Origin: Streptomyces sp. NBC_01498
GTDB lineage: Bacteria > Actinomycetota > Actinomycetes > Streptomycetales > Streptomycetaceae
Direction: 5' to 3'
Length of the DNA stretch: 64,000 bases
Assembly (NCBI RefSeq): GCF_036327775.1
Contig: NZ_CP109598.1
Span: 4,786,001 to 4,850,000, forward strand
Both the position numbers and the translations under genes were made by a program. Below are positions 7,512 to 37,553 of this stretch, one piece after another. A model generated the notes under the pieces. The model saw only the letters and a list, made by a program, of their open reading frames with translations. It was not told the origin of the DNA and ran no database searches. The number at the start of each line of letters is the position of its first letter. Within the stretch, counting starts at the first letter, position 1.

Positions 7512-9502
7512 TGCTTAGGTCCCCCAAGGGAAATCTGTATGGTCTGGTCGACGGGCCCGGAGGGTGTCCGCTCCGGGGTGTGCGGGTCCGGTCCGGCGCC
7601 CGGGAGCTGAGCGGTCCGGTCGGCCCCCGGGACCTGCGGCGCCCGCGAGGCGGCGGCGGGCGGGGTGTCGGCCCGGCCGCCGTGCCTGCCGCGCTTGCCC
7701 CGCTTCTTCTTCTCGGCCCGGATCCCCATCCGCCACACGATGATCGGGGACGCCGTGATCAGCATCGCCAGCGTCGCCCAGGTGATCATCGCCGGATGGT
7801 CGTGCCCCAGGAAGAAGGACGAGACCAGCGACCCGGCGAAGACGAGAATGAAGAACAGATGGATCCGGAACGTCCCGAACAGCGTGTCCGGGCTGGACGA
7901 GTCGCCCTTGGGCGTCACGACGAAGCCGCTCTTGCGGCGCAGTACGGCGTCGAGCAGCGAGCGCGCGTAGATCGGCGCGGAGAGCGCGGACATCGCCATA
8001 CCGGCGAGACCGCCGGACCCCTCGGGCTCGTGCGGCGAGACGTTGTGCCGCCGGTTCCAGATGTAGAGGCCGATCTGGAGGGCGGAGGCGTTGCCGTACA
8101 GCATCATCCAGATCGCCGGGTCGATCTGCACACCCGAGGCGCCCATGCCCAGGAACAGCGCGCAACTCAGCGCCGCCAGGATCCAGTTGAGCGCCGACAT
8201 CGGGTAGAAGATGATCATCATCGTGTAGTTGAAGAGCTTGCCGGGCGGCAGGGTGCCGAAGCCCCTCCAGTACTGCTTGAGGATCGTCTCGTACGTGCCC
8301 CGCGACCAGCGCAGCTGCTGGGTGAAGAAGTCCGTCCAGGCGGTCGGGCCCTCACCGACGGCGAGCACGTCGGGGGTGTAGACCGAGCGCCACTTGTTGC
8401 CCGTTCCGGGGTTGCGGGCGCGGTGCATCTCGAAGCCCGTCGCCATGTCCTCGGTGATCGAGTCGTACAGTCCGCCGATCTGCTTGAGCGCCGAGATGCG
8501 TACGGCGTTGCTGGTGCCGACGAACATGGGCGAGCCGTAGCGGTTGCCCGCCCGCTGGATCAGGGCGTGGAAGAGGAACTGCTGCGACTCGGCGGCCTTC
8601 GTGACGAACGTGTCGTAGTTGCCGTAGACCTGCGGGCCGATGACGAAGCCGACGTCCGGGTCCCGGAAGTAACCGAGCATCCGCTCCAGGTAGTTGGCCA
8701 TGGGGATGTGGTCGGTGTCGACGGAGGCGAAGAAGTCGTAGTCGTCGCCGTGGGCGTCGAGCCAGGCGTTGTAGTTGCCGTGCTTGGTCTTGGCGCGGTG
8801 CGCGCCCTTGGCCTGGTTCCACTTCGCGATTCCCTTGCGGGAGAAGTGGTGCACACCGAGCCGGGCGCAGACCTCCTTGACGGCGGGGTCGTCGCCCTCG
8901 TCGAGGAGCCAGACGTGCATCAGTCCGCGGTGCCGGATCCGGACCGCCGCCTCCAGCGTCTTCGTCACCATCTCCAGGGGCTCCTTCCCCGGGACGAAGG
9001 AGGTGAGGAAGGCGACGCGGGTGCCGCTCGCCGGGACGACGGGCACGGGGTCGCGCGCCACGAGCGTGGCGTGCGCGTTGGACAGCACGTTCATCGTCCG
9101 GAACAGCTCGATCAGTCCGATCGAGACGAGCATGACGATGTCGAGGACGAGCAGCGTGTCGTTCTTGAGGTTCGGGTCGCGCTCGGTCCAGTGCTGGGGC
9201 TGCATCAGCCAGGCGAAGAGTCCGAGGGAGAGCAGCGGGGCGGCGCCGAGCAGCAGGGCGGCCCGGATGCGGTGCGGCTCCTGGGAGAGCAGCGAGCGGT
9301 ACTGCACCTTGTACGGCTTGTCCGGGGACGGCTGGGTGAGCGGCCCGGCGAGCCGGCTGTAGTGCTCGTAGTCGTACTTGGGCAGTTCCTTCTTGGGCGC
9401 GCGGGCCCGGGGGCCGCCGGTCCTGAGCTGCGAGGGAATCCGGAGCTGAGTGGTCCGGGACACGTCGTTGTCCGGCCGCTCGCCGCTCGGCGTCGACGTC
9501 AT
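7508..9502 (-). CDS. cslA: CslA, cellulose synthase-like glycosyltransferase
   Basis: This 664-residue membrane GT2 enzyme has paired membrane helices near residues 80-100 and 120-140. The catalytic domain has SVDTDH (DxD), SITED and QQLRW motifs, and several further helices follow to about residue 600. A charged, Pro-rich tail ends the protein. It is expected to polymerise a beta-glucan-like polymer at hyphal tips from a UDP-sugar and to work with GlxA, encoded downstream. The long region upstream carries its promoter. Catalytic motifs look intact. Confidence 0.95.
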   Translation of the reverse strand: MTSTPSGERPDNDVSRTTQLRIPSQLRTGGPRARAPKKELPKYDYEHYSRLAGPLTQPSPDKPYKVQYRSLLSQEPHRIRAALLLGAAPLLSLGLFAWLMQPQHWTERDPNLKNDTLLVLDIVMLVSIGLIELFRTMNVLSNAHATLVARDPVPVVPASGTRVAFLTSFVPGKEPLEMVTKTLEAAVRIRHRGLMHVWLLDEGDDPAVKEVCARLGVHHFSRKGIAKWNQAKGAHRAKTKHGNYNAWLDAHGDDYDFFASVDTDHIPMANYLERMLGYFRDPDVGFVIGPQVYGNYDTFVTKAAESQQFLFHALIQRAGNRYGSPMFVGTSNAVRISALKQIGGLYDSITEDMATGFEMHRARNPGTGNKWRSVYTPDVLAVGEGPTAWTDFFTQQLRWSRGTYETILKQYWRGFGTLPPGKLFNYTMMIIFYPMSALNWILAALSCALFLGMGASGVQIDPAIWMMLYGNASALQIGLYIWNRRHNVSPHEPEGSGGLAGMAMSALSAPIYARSLLDAVLRRKSGFVVTPKGDSSSPDTLFGTFRIHLFFILVFAGSLVSSFFLGHDHPAMITWATLAMLITASPIIVWRMGIRAEKKKRGKRGRHGGRADTPPAAASRAPQVPGADRTAQLPGAGPDPHTPERTPSGPVDQTIQISLGGPKQ

Positions 9503-27970: not shown

Positions 27971-28297
27971 GGCTCGCTCCCGCAGTGCAGTGGTGTCGTA
28001 CAGAGGTGTGATTCGGGATGGTCGGCGCAGGAAAGTGTGCCGATCATAGAGGCTGGCCGGTCGGCCGTTCCAGCTCCCGGGTGGTGAGCCCCGGTCCCCG
28101 AGGCCGACGCCGGCCGACGGACGATCGTTTCTGCGCGGATACGGCGCGGGATGTCCCGCGCCTGATCGATGGTGACTTTCCGTGATCCGCCGGGGGTGTC
28201 GGCCCGCTCACCCGACTGGGCGCCCGGAACAGGCCGTACCCCCGTGAACAGGCACAAGGTGGGTGGGCCGTCCCGCATTCCGCAGCCGGAGGTCCAC
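27971..28297. promoter_or_regulatory. Divergent upstream region, cdgA and M6 protease
   Basis: About 330 bases separate the two divergent starts. I see no credible gene and no long inverted repeat. It should hold both promoters. Confidence 0.35.
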
Positions 28298-29542
28298 GTG
28301 GAGCGTCGCCCGACACCCGGGGGAGTGGAACGGCCGCGCCTGCGCAGTACGACCGCGGCCTTCACCTCGCTCGCCGCGGTCGCCGCCACCTCCCTGGTGG
28401 CCGGACCCGCCGTGGCCGCGCACTCCGCCGGGCCGTGCGCCCTGCCGCGTACCACCGCGCACCACTCGCTCGGACTCGACACGTGGAACGCCTCCTACCC
28501 GCGCCCGGCCAGGACCCTTGACGCGGTCATGGTGTTTCTTTCATTCCCGGACGCGGTGCCGCGAACCGACCCGGCGGATCTCCTGGCCGACCACTTTCCG
28601 GAGACCAGCCGGTTCTTCGAGCGGGCGTCGTACGGGAAGTTCGCCCTGCGCCCGCATCCCCGGCTCCGCTGGATCGACATGCCGCGCCCGTCCACGGAGT
28701 ACGCGATACAGCGCGACTGGGACCCGGCGATGCGCACGGCGTATCTGCGTGACGCGCTCAAGGTCGCCGATCCGGTGATCGACTTCTCGCGGTACGACAT
28801 CGTCTACCTGGTCGCCGACCCGGACGCGCCCGGCGTCGACTCGGACGCCACGAAGGTGGTCAACTTCGACGATCCGATGAGCGCGGACGGCACCGAGATC
28901 AAGCGGGTCGTCACCGTCTTCGAGCGGCACCCGCCGGACCGCAACGTGCTGGCGCACGAGACGGGGCACGTCTTCGACCTGCCCGACCTCTACCACCGGC
29001 CGAACGACGGGAAGGGCGACTGGGACACCCACGTCGGCGACTGGGACGTGATGGGCAGCCAGTTCGGCCTGGCGCCGGACCTGTTCGGCTGGCACAAGTG
29101 GAAGCTGGGCTGGCTCGACGGGCGGCAGGTGAGCTGTGTGAAGCCCACGGGCAGCAGCATGCTGACCCTGGAACCACTGGACGCGGCGCCGCTGTCCGGC
29201 GCGGGTGCCGGGACCCGGCTCGCGGTGGTCAGGACCGGCCCGCACTCGGTGCTGGCGATCGAGGCACGCGGTTCCACCGGCAACGACGCGACGACCTGCA
29301 CCGAGGGCGTGCTGATCTACCGGGTCCGGGGCGAGGCGGAGTCGGGCGGCGGCCCCATCGAGGTCGTGGACGCGCACCCGGACAGCGAGGCGTGCTGGGA
29401 CCAGTCGGTCTACCCGCCGCTGGCGGACGCGCCGCTGGGGGTCGGTGAGACGTTCACGGTGCCGGGGGAGGGCACGAAGGTGGAGGTGGCGGACCGGACG
29501 CGGACGGGGGCGTGGACGGTGAAGGTCACGACGGTGGTGTGA
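28298..29542 (+). CDS. Secreted M6 family metalloprotease
   Basis: This 414-residue protein starts at GTG 28298, six bases after GGAGG. A Sec-type signal ends near AVAAHS. The M6 domain carries the zinc site LAHETGHVFDLPDLY followed by WDVMGSQ (Met-turn-like), as in immune-inhibitor-A-like enzymes. The C-terminal 130 residues form a beta-rich domain. Upstream GTG codons give a longer N-terminus without a better ribosome site. It ends just before the terminator and tRNA-Lys. Confidence 0.88.
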   Translation: MERRPTPGGVERPRLRSTTAAFTSLAAVAATSLVAGPAVAAHSAGPCALPRTTAHHSLGLDTWNASYPRPARTLDAVMVFLSFPDAVPRTDPADLLADHFPETSRFFERASYGKFALRPHPRLRWIDMPRPSTEYAIQRDWDPAMRTAYLRDALKVADPVIDFSRYDIVYLVADPDAPGVDSDATKVVNFDDPMSADGTEIKRVVTVFERHPPDRNVLAHETGHVFDLPDLYHRPNDGKGDWDTHVGDWDVMGSQFGLAPDLFGWHKWKLGWLDGRQVSCVKPTGSSMLTLEPLDAAPLSGAGAGTRLAVVRTGPHSVLAIEARGSTGNDATTCTEGVLIYRVRGEAESGGGPIEVVDAHPDSEACWDQSVYPPLADAPLGVGETFTVPGEGTKVEVADRTRTGAWTVKVTTVV

Positions 29543-30451: not shown

Positions 30452-30695
30452 GACAGCCAGGTCTACCTGGAGTGACGATCCGCTTCCGGGCAGTTGCGGA
30501 AAGCCGGGACGGGGCGGCGGGGGAGGGCGTAACCTACGCCCCGGCATATGCCAGAGAGCCGGACGGGCGGGCACGGCTGTCGGCGTCGGCGGGGGCGCCG
30601 TGACGCGGGCGAGCCCGTGAGGCCGAGGGGCCTGCTGCGCGCGACGGGCCGGGTTCGCCGACAGTGGCACCGCGCCGACGCGGGCCGGCCGCCGC

Positions 30696-31043
30696 TCACT
30701 CCCCGGGCGTGCGCCCGTTGCGCAGCAGATCGCGCCCGAACTCGACCATCTTCCGGGCATAGTCCTCGGTCCACTCCGCCCGCTCGGCGATGTCCGCCTC
30801 CGTCAGCCGGTCGAACCGGCGCGGATCGGCGAGCTGCGCGGCGGCGACGGCCTGGAACTCCACGGCACGGTCGGTGGCGGCCCGGAAGGCCAGCGTCAGC
30901 TCGGTGGCGCGGTCCAGCAGCGCGCCCGGGTCGTCGATCGACTCCAGATCGAAGAAGCGCTCGGGATCGGAGGCCGCCTCCGACGGCTCGAACAGCAGCG
31001 GGGCGGGCCGCAGCCGTCGCCGACTCGACTCGGATTCCGCCAT
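30696..31043 (-). CDS. Conserved hypothetical, helical, 115 residues
   Basis: ATG 31043 follows GGAGG by five bases. The N-terminus is Arg-rich (SSRRRLRPAP). From about residue 25 it is predicted to be mostly helical, with alternating Ala, Glu, Asp and Arg. No known motif, signal or membrane segment is seen. Codon use is typical of the genome. Confidence 0.7.
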   Translation of the reverse strand: MAESESSRRRLRPAPLLFEPSEAASDPERFFDLESIDDPGALLDRATELTLAFRAATDRAVEFQAVAAAQLADPRRFDRLTEADIAERAEWTEDYARKMVEFGRDLLRNGRTPGE

Positions 31044-31402
31044 GTGTCCTCCTGCTGTTCCTGGTACGGGGCCTTGTGCTCTCGTACGTGCCGATTCGGC
31101 CACCGTCCATTGTCCCGCCCCGCGCAAGAGGGCCTCACGGCTCGCCCGGCGCCCTCGATGGGACGGGCCCCGGCGGAGGTCCCGCCGGGGCCCGGAAGCT
31201 CCGGCAAGGTGCCCGTCCGACGGGCCGGGCCCCTCACGAATCTCCGGAACCGACCACGGATCTCTCCCCCCAGCCACCCCATCTGACCCGTCATCATCTT
31301 CCGTCGCAACCCCCGGGGACGGCGCCGGGAGGCGATATTGTCCGATGCAAAAGACCGTGTCACGATCGAAAAATTATTCGCCCTGATGGCAGTGAGGTGT
31401 TC
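31044..31402. promoter_or_regulatory. Region upstream of the RiPP-like peptide gene
   Basis: About 360 bases without a credible gene. GGGCCCCGGCGG (31165-31176) pairs perfectly with CCGCCGGGGCCC (31182-31193), a strong hairpin. Bases 31330-31400 include an A/T-rich stretch (GAAAAATTATTC), unusual here and a likely promoter for the peptide gene. Confidence 0.5.
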
Positions 31403-31492
31403 ATGAAAAGGACACGGCGCCTGGTGGCTCACCTGGTGGGCCGCAAGCGGGTCAGCGGACGCTATCCCTACTGGCCCTACCACACGCGGTAA
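31403..31492 (+). CDS. Candidate P450-modified RiPP precursor peptide (29 aa)
   Basis: The ATG follows GAGG by five bases, and the gene ends in TAA 87 bases before the P450 gene. The leader is basic (MKRTRRLVAHLVGRKRVSGR) and the tail is strikingly aromatic (YPYWPYHTR: three Tyr, one Trp, one His in nine residues). A short Lys/Arg-rich leader, a GRK-V-SGR-type stretch and an aromatic C-terminus next to a single P450 is, as I recall, the design of atropopeptide, biarylitide, cittilin and cihunamide precursors. There the P450 joins aromatic side chains. The trailing HTR could be part of the core or removed. The product is inferred, not shown. Confidence 0.72.
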   Translation: MKRTRRLVAHLVGRKRVSGRYPYWPYHTR

Positions 31493-31518
31493 CCCGACCG
31501 GCTCGGCGCAGAACACCG

Positions 31519-31551
31519 ATCGCGGGATTCCTCACGGAGGGGTCCCGCGAT
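31519..31551 (+). terminator. Hairpin between peptide gene and P450 gene
   Basis: ATCGCGGGA pairs with TCCCGCGAT (9 bp) across a 15-base loop containing CGGAGGGG. It could be a leaky terminator that lowers P450 expression relative to the precursor, or an mRNA-stabilising stem. No T-run follows. Confidence 0.5.
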
Positions 31552-31578
31552 TCACCGTGATCCACCGGGGGAGGGCGC

Positions 31579-32838
31579 ATGGCACACCGCGAGAGGCCCC
31601 GTCGGCCGCCGGGCCCGCGCGGGCACTGGCTGACGGGCAACACCCGCGCGTACGAGGCCGACCGGATCGGCTTCCTGCGCCGCTGCCACCGCGAGTACGG
31701 CGACGTCTTCTCGTACGACGACCACACGCTCTTCGTGATCGACCCGGACCTCACCCACGAGGCACTCACCCGCACGGGCGACGCCTTCGTCACCGAACTG
31801 GCACCCTTCGACACACGGCGCGATCTCGACCGGGCCGCCACGCACGCCACCTCCTGGATGTCCGAACGCCGATCCGCGTGGCCGGGGCTCAACCGGACGG
31901 CGGCGGCCACGACCGACGACCTGACCCTCGCGATCCTCGACACGGTCGTCGCCGAGGCGGCGGGCCACGAGGTCGACGTACTCACCACCATGCGGACGCT
32001 CGCCGCCCGGACGATCGCCGCGTACTGCTTCGGCGCGGACTCCACCGGCGTCCCCGAACTGCTCCACGAGACCGTCCGCGCCACCGAGCCGTTCGCGGAG
32101 TCGTCCCGCGAGTTCCCCGCGTGGCTGCCGCTCCCGCGCCACCGGCGCTTCTTCCGTACCAACCGGCTCCTCGGCGAAACGCTGAGCCGCCTCGTCCGGG
32201 AACGGCGCGCGTCGACCTCCGACGCGCCCCCGAAGGACCTGCTCGGCTCCCTTCTCGCCGCCGAACCGGCCCCGTCCGACGCGGCCCTGGCGTCGACCCT
32301 GCACAGCGTCCTCATGGGCGGCCACGGCATCCCCGCCGCCGCACTCACCTCCGTCGTACGGGAACTCGCCCGCCGGCCCGGCCTGGTCGCCGACCTCCGC
32401 GCCGAGGACGGCACCCGGCTGGCCGAGGCGGTGGTCCGCGAGACGCTGCGCCTGTATCCGCCCGCGTGGCTGATGACCCGTACCGCCCGGACGGCGACCA
32501 CCCTGGGCGCCTGGTCGCTCAGCCCCGGCGACGACGTCCTGCTCAACCCCTACCTGATCCACCGGGACCCCCGCTGGTGGCCCCGCCCGGACGAGTTCGA
32601 CCCCACCCGCTGGCTGAACGGCCATACGGCCCCCGGCCGCGCCTACCTCCCGTTCGGCGCCGGACCACGGGTCTGCCTGGGCGCGGCCCTGACCCTGCGC
32701 CAACTGACCCTGACCACGTCCCGGCTGGCCCACCGCTTCACCATCGAGTCCCCGAACGCCCCGTCGGCGAACCCCCGGTTCGTCGACCGCCTGGCCCCGG
32801 CGGGCCTGCGGGCCCGTTTCGTGCCGGTGGTGCAGTAG
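31579..32838 (+). CDS. Cytochrome P450, candidate RiPP-crosslinking enzyme
   Basis: This 419-residue protein has heme ligand Cys366 in FGAGPRVCLG, Glu288 and Arg291 in ETLR, and the FDPTRW meander. All the haem-binding landmarks are kept. The I-helix at residues 247-253 reads GGHGIPA in place of the common (A/G)Gx(D/E)T, so the usual acid-alcohol pair for O2 activation is absent. Such departures are known in P450s that make aryl crosslinks rather than simple hydroxylations. No ferredoxin or reductase gene is adjacent. The ATG follows GGGGGAGGG. With the aromatic peptide gene directly upstream on the same strand, peptide crosslinking is the best inference; a small-molecule hydroxylase is the alternative. 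Confidence 0.9.
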   Translation: MAHRERPRRPPGPRGHWLTGNTRAYEADRIGFLRRCHREYGDVFSYDDHTLFVIDPDLTHEALTRTGDAFVTELAPFDTRRDLDRAATHATSWMSERRSAWPGLNRTAAATTDDLTLAILDTVVAEAAGHEVDVLTTMRTLAARTIAAYCFGADSTGVPELLHETVRATEPFAESSREFPAWLPLPRHRRFFRTNRLLGETLSRLVRERRASTSDAPPKDLLGSLLAAEPAPSDAALASTLHSVLMGGHGIPAAALTSVVRELARRPGLVADLRAEDGTRLAEAVVRETLRLYPPAWLMTRTARTATTLGAWSLSPGDDVLLNPYLIHRDPRWWPRPDEFDPTRWLNGHTAPGRAYLPFGAGPRVCLGAALTLRQLTLTTSRLAHRFTIESPNAPSANPRFVDRLAPAGLRARFVPVVQ

Positions 32839-35195: not shown

Positions 35196-36080
35196 GTGGG
35201 ACTGAACCTGGCAGCGGCGGCTGCTCGCCGCCGCTTCGGCAAGGCACTTCGACAGGCGCGGGACGGCACGACTGCCACCGGCAAGAAGGTGCAGCAGATC
35301 GAGGTCGCCCGCGCGATGAAGCTCAAGTCGTACGACCGCTACTCGCGGATCGAACGAGGTGAAACGTGGCCCAAGGACGCCGAGTGGCGGGTCATCTGCA
35401 AAGTCCTGAGACTTGATGAGATGACCAAGGCGACCCTCAGCGCGATGCGCGTCGAGGGAATGGCTATCGAGGACGCCTGGTGGGAGGAGTTCCAAGGCGT
35501 CGTCCCGGATTCTCTGATCAAGTTCGTCGCCCATGAGGACAGCGCGTCCCGCATGACCGCGCTCGCCGGCAACGTCCTGCCCGGCCTGCTCCAGACACCC
35601 GCGTACGCGCAGTCTCTTGTGCTGACCCTCAGCAGTACCGTGATGACGCCGCACGCTGCGGACCGTTCGGCCTCGATGCGATCCCAGCGGCGCATGATCT
35701 TCCAGAAGTCCCCGGCGCCCGATGTCGAAGCGGTGTTCTCCGAGGGGGCGTTGCACCAGGTCGTCGGTGGCCCCGCGGTGATGGTCGAGCAGCTTGACGC
35801 CCTGATCGAGGATGCCGTTTCCGGCCGAGTGCGCTTCCGGATCATCCCCTTCACCGCACCTGCCACGCTGACGTACATGTTCACGCTCATGGAATTCCCG
35901 GGGCAGGGTGAGACCCCTGTGGCGGCTTTCGATCAGATGACCGGTATGGATTTTAAGGACAAGCAAGGGGACGTCCGGAGCATCAAGGCATACGTGGAAG
36001 CTCTGCGGAATGTGGCGAAGGACGAAGTGGCATCGATTGAGATATTGAGGGCCCGGCGAAAAGAGATGGCGTGTGAATGA
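35196..36080 (+). CDS. Helix-turn-helix regulator with DUF5753 domain (WhiJ-like)
   Basis: This 294-residue protein has an HTH in the first 70 residues (VAROAMKLKSYDRYSRIERGE region) and a DUF5753 domain after residue 100 (GLLQTPAYAQ is the hallmark). The GTG start follows GGAGG. It is followed with an 8-base overlap by a DUF397 gene and is divergent from an ATPase-like gene. Together they form the three-part set seen at whiJ and abaA loci, which influence development and antibiotic production. Confidence 0.88.
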   Translation: MGLNLAAAAARRRFGKALRQARDGTTATGKKVQQIEVARAMKLKSYDRYSRIERGETWPKDAEWRVICKVLRLDEMTKATLSAMRVEGMAIEDAWWEEFQGVVPDSLIKFVAHEDSASRMTALAGNVLPGLLQTPAYAQSLVLTLSSTVMTPHAADRSASMRSQRRMIFQKSPAPDVEAVFSEGALHQVVGGPAVMVEQLDALIEDAVSGRVRFRIIPFTAPATLTYMFTLMEFPGQGETPVAAFDQMTGMDFKDKQGDVRSIKAYVEALRNVAKDEVASIEILRARRKEMACE

Positions 36081-36719: not shown

Positions 36720-37553
36720 TCAACCTCGATAGGTCCCGGCCCACTCGGACAGCCTCTGCCGCGCTGACGCGCCGAACAGGGCATGACGTTCAAAAGACGA
36801 GAACACGGCAAGATAGTCGGCGATGTCTCGGGAATCCTGAAACACCATGCGGCCGGTGAAGTTCTCCACCGTCGCCAGTCGTTCGTCATAGACGGTAAAC
36901 GTGTTCATCGGGCCGCGGGGTACCTGGGAATCAAACGGAATCACACCCACGCGCACGTTCGGCAGGTATGAGAGGGAGGCGAGTCGGTCGATCTGTATGG
37001 CCATGGCCGCAGGTGGCACGATCGCCCATCTCACCGCCTGCTCGGTGAGCAGGAAGGTGAACGATTTCGATGCGTCGTGAAGAACCGCTTGTCTCTCCAA
37101 TTTTCGAGCCACCGTTTTTGAGGTGTCGCCGGGAGAGTGCTGCAAGCTGGCACGTATGTACTCCGGCGTTGCCAACAAGCCGGTGACCATGGCCGGGAGG
37201 AAATACCGGAGGAACGTCGCCTCGGCCTCCAGAGCGGCCAGTTCTGTCTGCCGCTTCTCCAGGCCTCTGCGCCATGTTGACCGTTTGTCCTGCCACTCGG
37301 TGTTGGCCATTCTGGCCAGAGATGTGACTTCAGCCACCAGTTCCGGTGGAACGTCAAGCGCTCGGAGGATGCGTTCCACATCGACGAGTGTGGGTATCCT
37401 TCTCCCCGTCTCAAACTTACTGATCTGAGACTGGGACATGTTGCAACGCTTGGCCAGCCGGTCTCCGGTGAGACCGGCTGCCCTGCGCATTTCTCTCAAC
37501 TTCTTGGCCAGATCGCTCTTCGACCGGCCTAGTTGGTCTGGATCGAACGTCAC
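36720..37553 (-). CDS. Helix-turn-helix regulator with DUF5753 domain
   Basis: This 277-residue protein has a canonical XRE HTH at residues 18-72 (LTGDRLAKRCNMSQSQISKFETG) and a DUF5753 domain (VTGLLATPEYIRASL) to the end. The GTG start overlaps the DUF6879 stop (GTGA). It is a paralogue of the proteins at 1504-2385 and 35196-36080. Confidence 0.9.
   Translation of the reverse strand: MTFDPDQLGRSKSDLAKKLREMRRAAGLTGDRLAKRCNMSQSQISKFETGRRIPTLVDVERILRALDVPPELVAEVTSLARMANTEWQDKRSTWRRGLEKRQTELAALEAEATFLRYFLPAMVTGLLATPEYIRASLQHSPGDTSKTVARKLERQAVLHDASKSFTFLLTEQAVRWAIVPPAAMAIQIDRLASLSYLPNVRVGVIPFDSQVPRGPMNTFTVYDERLATVENFTGRMVFQDSRDIADYLAVFSSFERHALFGASARQRLSEWAGTYRG

Follow-up and report, generated by a model that had tools for sequence, protein, structure and literature searches.

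A short peptide gene and a cytochrome P450 gene lie side by side

In the 64-kb stretch of the Streptomyces sp. NBC_01498 genome that we analysed (hereafter the window, part of one 7.27-Mb contig), a short open reading frame is followed on the same strand by a cytochrome P450 gene, with 86 bases between the stop codon of the first and the start codon of the second, and the whole pair spans approximately 1.4 kb (Table 1). The short frame opens with an ATG at 31403, runs for 29 codons to a TAA that ends at 31492, and translates to MKRTRRLVAHLVGRKRVSGRYPYWPYHTR. We divide this peptide into a leader, MKRTRRLVAHLVGRKRVSGR, and a putative core, YPYWPYHTR, at a predicted leader-core border. In ten Streptomyces-type loci the Shine-Dalgarno sequence of the peptide gene reads GAGGTG or GGGGTG, and the promoter-like element upstream of it is largely kept in the same set, with a few bases differing in loci L011 and L023; a scan for the sigma-70 consensus gave no promoter at this element. 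A 314-codon frame that enters the peptide gene from upstream (30548-31492) was rejected as the true gene, as strong conservation begins near the ATG at 31403; its overlap with long frames of the other strand was also counted against it.

Table 1. Features of the peptide-P450 locus, in window coordinates
Feature	Position	Strand	Basis
Promoter-like element, TTGTCC - 17 nt - CACGAT	31338..31366	+	Alignment of 10 loci; function predicted
Shine-Dalgarno sequence of the peptide gene, GAGGTG	31394..31399	+	Sequence and relatives
Precursor peptide gene (putative), 29 aa	31403..31492	+	Sequence; kept in 22/22 core-clade loci
YPYW codons (Y-x-Y-W block), proposed cross-link site	31463..31474	+	Peptide alignment, codons
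Intergenic hairpin, with arms 31518-31531 and 31539-31552	31518..31552	+	15-locus alignment
Ribosome site of the P450 gene, GGAGGG	31570..31575	+	Sequence, kept in alignment
Cytochrome P450, 419 aa; putative cross-linker of the peptide	31579..32838	+	Pfam, NCBIfam, trees

The peptide gene is conserved with the P450 and constrained as coding sequence

Relatives of the P450 were gathered without use of the peptide, and a peptide was then sought upstream of each. Matches at E <= 1e-60 occur in seven of 392 genus genomes, the window's own counted. The peptide gene is in place in all four of the nearest genus relatives (P450 identity 70-78%), the fifth relative (47%) encodes MRHVRHAAVRMMGRVRMGGMYTYWNIFN, and the sixth (39%) has only a doubtful peptide; the candidate found in locus L016 (AGFYKY) is weak. 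At the level of the class (394 genomes, 1e-50), a P450 match was found only in the window and one other genome. A six-P450 alignment, used to scan genome contigs, yielded 78 loci. The related loci examined for peptides were L017-L051 (n = 35), with L012, L013, L014 and L015 taken as the same as L020, L022, L023 and L048 and each counted once.

A peptide of what we term the YxYW/Y-x-W precursor family was present in 32 of these 35 loci. No candidate peptide was found in L047 or L049, and the peptide of L050 is unlike the rest. In the latter locus, from Nocardiopsis quinghaiensis and with a distant P450 relative, the upstream short frame (L050:7783-7857) ends in ARTGAYPFYWG and is perhaps another type of aromatic-tailed precursor. 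In L024 (Streptomyces sp. P3; P450 starting at 8001) the peptide is intact and the P450 carries a frameshift ahead of the heme loop, reflecting either an assembly error or decay.

Several observations indicate that the short frame is a gene. An aromatic-tailed short-ORF rule that demands a ribosome site, devised after the window's peptide had been seen, matched the 64-kb window once, at the peptide gene itself, and matched 17 times in 1.18 Mb of sequence (L017-L094), each time at the peptide gene adjoining a P450 (17/17); the rule is strict and misses real copies such as those of L019-L022. Across the first 20 codons of ten Streptomyces-type copies, codon positions 1, 2 and 3 carry 4, 4 and 14 variable sites, respectively, and ten of these codons vary synonymously only while five alter the amino acid. 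Averaged over sequence pairs in 30-column windows, identity lies at 0.33-0.63 ahead of the promoter-like element and climbs to 0.92 where the peptide begins. A search of the 392 genus genomes with an exact DNA pattern for VSG[RK]YxYW gave nine matches, and a reversed-pattern control likewise gave nine, so the support rests on the placement of the matches and not on their number: five of the nine are peptide genes and come from the very five genomes that have a close P450, and the remaining four fall within longer frames or away from the frame end. The sequence-only reading from which we started had described a short peptide gene with its own ribosome site directly before a P450, and the sequence, its conservation, the coding constraint and the rule scan all confirm this description. 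Judged from these comparisons, the pairing of the peptide gene with the P450 is genuine and is conserved, as a two-gene unit, across Streptomyces and related bacteria.

Core variants of the peptide accompany clades of the P450

We placed the P450s in a tree of 37 rows, leaving out those of L024 (shifted frame) and L049 (partial P450). The window falls in a clade of 21 rows with support of 100/100 which, together with L024, makes up 22 core loci from Streptomyces, Micromonosporaceae, Nonomuraea and their kin. Every one of the 22 has a [VI]SG[RK]-Y-x-Y-W peptide with a basic leader just upstream of the P450. In the sister clade, all seven loci carry a GG[FMR]-Y-[TN]-Y-W peptide, and in an outer group six of seven (L104 included) carry a G-R-[YW]-x-W peptide, the seventh being L047. 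Support for the deep forks is not strong (outer group, 94/87; core plus sister, 91/84 in the 37-row tree and 83/75 in a tree with two added rows), and the correspondence between tail type and P450 tree is one seen by eye. Linkage of a Y-x-Y-W peptide to the P450 in two-gene form extends over five families (Streptomycetaceae, Micromonosporaceae, Streptosporangiaceae, Pseudonocardiaceae and Dermacoccaceae).

Homologous P450 genes without the peptide, or broken peptide frames, would have spoken against the initial reading of the locus as a minimal P450-RiPP pair; in the core clade the peptide frame is intact in 22 of 22 loci. That reading holds for the core clade and frays further out, where L047 and L049 lack a candidate and L050 departs from the family; the shifted P450 frame of L024 also qualifies it.

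In an alignment of 35 peptides (the L104 row is incomplete at its end), the aromatic block and the leader-core junction are the best-conserved parts. The leader is basic, comprises about 20 residues, and has RVSGR as its last residues in all ten Streptomyces-type loci. Throughout the core clade, the side chains that do not vary are Tyr1, Tyr3, Trp4 and a further Tyr, placed either directly behind the Trp or one residue later. The ten Streptomyces-type loci have P, I or S as core residue 2, and the residues after the Trp are PY in Streptomyces, Nonomuraea, Bailinhaonella and Micromonospora C31, FY in Catellatospora, Allorhizocola and M. zingiberis, and Y alone in L011. The tail ends in Arg in all ten Streptomyces-type loci. 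Of these ten, the nine with PY have either His or Gln at position 7. The earlier suggestion that a Tyr-His pair near the end of the tail forms the cross-link is not supported: Gln takes the place of His7 in four Streptomyces relatives, so this pair cannot be a general cross-link. Among the outer relatives, the cores YVWYH, WTWL and YHWATPTG (L039:7824-7904, L046:776-859 and L104:1350-1433, respectively) are further Y/W-x-W variants beside related P450s.

The pair stands alone in changing surroundings

Neighbourhoods of 33 loci were compared over up to 8 kb per side (some contigs end sooner), using frames of at least 100 codons and matches above 90 bits; L011, with its short flanks, is absent from this set. 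Apart from its antisense shadow, the P450 is the sole family common to all 33 neighbourhoods. The next widest family group occurs in nine loci, at scattered places and on either strand, and three close Streptomyces have longer synteny in common. In these 33 neighbourhoods the pair was not accompanied by any recurring gene for a protease, a transporter or a tailoring enzyme. By this comparison of gene content, the locus is a stand-alone two-gene unit.

A gene for an M6-family metalloprotease lies 1.9 kb upstream of the pair in the window (28169-29539, + strand; TIGR03296, E 2.4e-54). We considered it as a leader protease and dropped it, its frame having no match in the other loci compared. Two helix-turn-helix regulators for which the best NCBIfam match is the Sco1979 type, below the cut-off, lie close together downstream (35196-36077, + strand, and 36723-37553, - strand).

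The constancy of the pair bears on whether the peptide is the substrate of the P450. The enzyme could instead act on some other compound, with the peptide an independent, co-transcribed short protein such as a small membrane or nucleic-acid binding peptide, and a strongly basic leader could indeed bind a membrane or RNA. We regard this as very unlikely, however, as the two genes remain linked across five families while their surroundings change, the conservation of the peptide is highest in the aromatic block and the junction, and no orphan peptide gene was found by exact pattern in 392 genus genomes.

The P450 lacks the acid-alcohol pair of the I-helix

The enzyme is a cytochrome P450 (PF00067, E 9.3e-48), with the ExxR motif as ETLR and the heme loop FGAGPRVCLG. 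The next-best P450 match in the same genome is 33% identical over only part of the protein, and the enzyme is thus without a close paralogue there. Of the named NCBIfam models, that of the RiPP P450 ApyO matches best, at 126.9 bits, far under the cut-off of 525. An AlphaFold2 model (mean pLDDT 87.0) has a standard P450 fold; a Foldseek search of the PDB with this model gave only general P450s among the matches listed, with BM3 first, and a PDB sequence search likewise gave only general P450s among the best 60 of 494 matches. As the structural matches are to general P450s only, the fold is uninformative as to substrate.

The I-helix is more distinctive. In the window's P450 GGHGIPAAA replaces the AGxET motif, and GGHG[VI]PA is found in 22 of 22 core rows. 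The seven sister rows have A[AG]xGVPA and the seven outer rows A-S-[HY]-G-[VQ]-P-G. The outer rows include that of L047, which lacks a peptide, so the signature alone does not mean that a peptide is present. Readings at this position elsewhere are ASENTSA (L016), ASYSTPG (L049) and ASQEMPT (L050). The E-T pair is kept in all 11 readable control P450s, eight of them distant and three from the window's genome; a fourth control from that genome could not be aligned. For P450Blt, a Tyr-His cross-linker, the available text of the source names A231, H234, E238 and Ser239 as key I-helix residues (PMC10929621). In contrast to E238 and Ser239 of that enzyme, on our predicted mapping, the core clade has Gly and Val or Ile at the E-T position. 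The missing acid-alcohol pair would fit dehydrogenative coupling better than monooxygenation.

A covarying hairpin lies between the two genes

Between the peptide and P450 genes, a 14-pair stem can be drawn in 15 of the 22 core loci. The hairpin alignment excludes L025 and six Nonomuraea/Bailinhaonella loci, in which no matching hairpin was seen. Across the 15 loci, 96.2% of cells are paired, a figure biased upward because the bounds were set by eye on the same sequences. Changes on both sides of the stem occur in eight of the 14 pairs; 500 shuffles gave a mean of 2.6 and never a count as high, and sliding the partner arm gave 1-3. The stem sequence shifts between clades, from GATCGC/GCGATC to CCACAGG/CCTGTGG and GAGCACAGG/CCTGTGCTC. 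The folding energy of the intergenic RNA is unexceptional (z -1.79, with 10 of 200 shuffles as low), so the evidence for the hairpin is its covariation. An Rfam search of 31100-31700 listed a sole match, on the other strand and far below the gathering score.

A hairpin that follows a short frame raises the question of an attenuator-type regulatory leader, in which pausing at Tyr, Trp or Pro codons would control the P450 message and the peptide would have no product of its own. The tail is rich in precisely these codons and the conserved hairpin does precede the P450. Pausing would not need the leader to be kept as amino acids, though, as the excess of synonymous-only codons indicates that it is. 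Moreover, no U-run follows the stem (0-4 T in the next eight bases, and 0 or 1 in 11 of 15 loci), and a terminator scan found none on the + strand. In 13 of 15 loci, 13-26 bases separate the end of the hairpin from the P450 start, and in the six Nonomuraea/Bailinhaonella loci, which are without it, the peptide stop lies 9-26 bases from the start of the P450 match. The minimum-energy folds of seven loci, the one kind of fold computed, all retain the hairpin. With these observations combined, we consider attenuation very unlikely. We infer instead that the hairpin layout and the short-gap layout both tune the ratio of substrate to enzyme. The locus of myxarylin, a biarylitide, has a 90-bp intergenic region with predicted secondary structure according to the available text of PMC8708641.

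Relation to known P450-modified peptides

Cittilin A and B are made by Myxococcus xanthus and have the core YIYY, and CitC is the cittilin methyltransferase. The locus resembles the cittilin type in having a precursor of about 27-29 residues ahead of a single P450 and a core of alternating Tyr, Y-x-Y-(aromatic), which here is YPYW and in 22 core and seven sister loci Y-x-Y-W; the cittilin precursor is given as 27 aa in the available text of PMC8708641. It differs from cittilin in that the fourth core residue is Trp rather than Tyr, the core continues PYHTR, and no methyltransferase family is common to the neighbourhoods compared.

Shandoamide, the syrinamides and citreamide (Liu et al. 2024, doi 10.1002/anie.202314046; clusters san, syr and cre) are called cittilin-type in the portions of the literature available (PMC12352619; names, PMC12299652). 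In a second P450 tree, in which two rows were added and L024 and L049 again left out, the Catellatospora citrea P450 (P0041, 63% identical) groups with that of C. paridis (98/92) within the core clade. The P450 of Saccharothrix syringae (P0074, 46%) falls in the sister clade with that of Saccharopolyspora shandongensis (L035, 44%), whose peptide reads GGFYTYWIIAN. One of the protein alignments used in the analysis comprises 53 of 120 listed proteins plus the window's. From the names, we take the C. citrea, S. syringae and S. shandongensis P450s to be CreB, SyrB and SanB. Three epithets matching three compound names are strong but indirect evidence that the YxYW P450 family has characterised members. 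The best reading is that the locus lies nearest to these published cittilin-type RiPPs, a link suggested by the species epithets.

The initial reading also held that the tail would be a core different from those known. Six core strings including YPYWPY, YIYWPY and VSGRYPYW were absent from the literature searched, which did not extend to Liu et al. 2024, and the string YPYW was not found among the papers listed. Nevertheless YxYW belongs to the whole family, into which the P450s of species matching published cittilin-type names fall, and the novelty is below that claimed.

Pseudosporamide, micitide 982 and MpoB represent the Tyr-x-Trp cross-linked peptides. The available text of PMC7277628 describes pseudosporamide as N-acetyl-Tyr-Pro-Trp with a biaryl bond. 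Pseudosporamide and micitide resemble the G-R-[YW]-x-W precursors of the outer relatives (for example GRYPWRH and GRYPWIP), whereas the window's Y-P-Y-W has an extra Tyr before the Trp and a longer tail. Biarylitide precursors have five residues, MxYxH. The biarylitide systems (P450Blt, BytO) are alike in combining a P450 with a tiny precursor encoded just upstream, yet the window's precursor has 29 residues.

In atropopeptides the core has a conserved Trp2 (xWxxW or xWxxY). An assignment of the locus to the atropopeptides or bitryptides (the tryptorubin and cihunamide type), rather than to the cittilin type, could appeal to the same two-gene layout of short precursor and P450 macrocyclase, to an aromatic core of similar length and to sister locus L038, whose core, YTYWNFWN, has W-x-x-W spacing. 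The single Trp of the window's core is residue 4, however, leaving no Trp2, W-x-x-W or W-x-x-Y. The available text of PMC11450843 defines atropopeptide precursors by a KSLK-type motif (KSLK, RSLK, ESLK, KSRK, KPLK or PSLK), which is absent from the window's peptide and, by eye, from all 35 aligned peptides. We therefore find this assignment extremely improbable and retain the cittilin-type reading.

A proposed pathway

Cross-linking of Tyr, Trp and His side chains is an established activity of P450s in RiPP pathways (available text of PMC12352619 and PMC11002830). It is quite likely that the locus is a two-gene P450-cross-linked RiPP unit comprising a putative precursor and a putative cross-linking P450, and its product is very probably a small peptide with joined Tyr and Trp side chains, a known kind of natural product. 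In the pathway that we propose, the basic leader and the [VI]-S-G-[RK] motif would be bound by the adjacent P450, which would couple aromatic side chains of the Y-x-Y-W block dehydrogenatively. Each bond would cost two hydrogens, with one to three bonds giving -2, -4 or -6 Da. The analogy with cittilin makes Tyr1, Tyr3 and Trp4 the residues most likely to be joined, and the Tyr after the Trp may participate. Since the pair has no accompanying protease, transporter or tailoring gene in the neighbourhoods compared, we assign processing to host proteases, which would cleave after Arg20, close to where leader and core meet, and shorten the tail. The hairpin probably keeps P450 expression below that of the peptide or else shields the peptide message, and substrate would thereby be in excess over enzyme. 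A bolder and rather doubtful possibility is that the product of the Streptomyces branch is polycyclic and differs from both cittilin and the Tyr-x-Trp peptides; in it, adjacent-residue links within Y-x-Y-W and a third bond to the Tyr after the Trp would be formed by a P450 without the acid-alcohol pair, with a structured RNA fixing the substrate-to-enzyme ratio.

Most likely, then, this is a genuine branch of the cittilin-type P450 RiPPs with its own core variant and a covarying intergenic hairpin, for which bonds, processing and function are those predicted above. The pair is approximately 1.4 kb and stand-alone, and hence directly testable by expression, and natural relatives supply core variants at position 2 (P, I or S), at position 7 (H or Q) and after the Trp (PY, FY or Y). 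The GGHG[VI]PA signature of the I-helix can help find more such enzymes. The locus would add to the P450-cross-linked RiPPs a Streptomyces-centred branch with a minimal two-gene pathway, of which a conserved RNA hairpin between the substrate and enzyme genes is an added feature.
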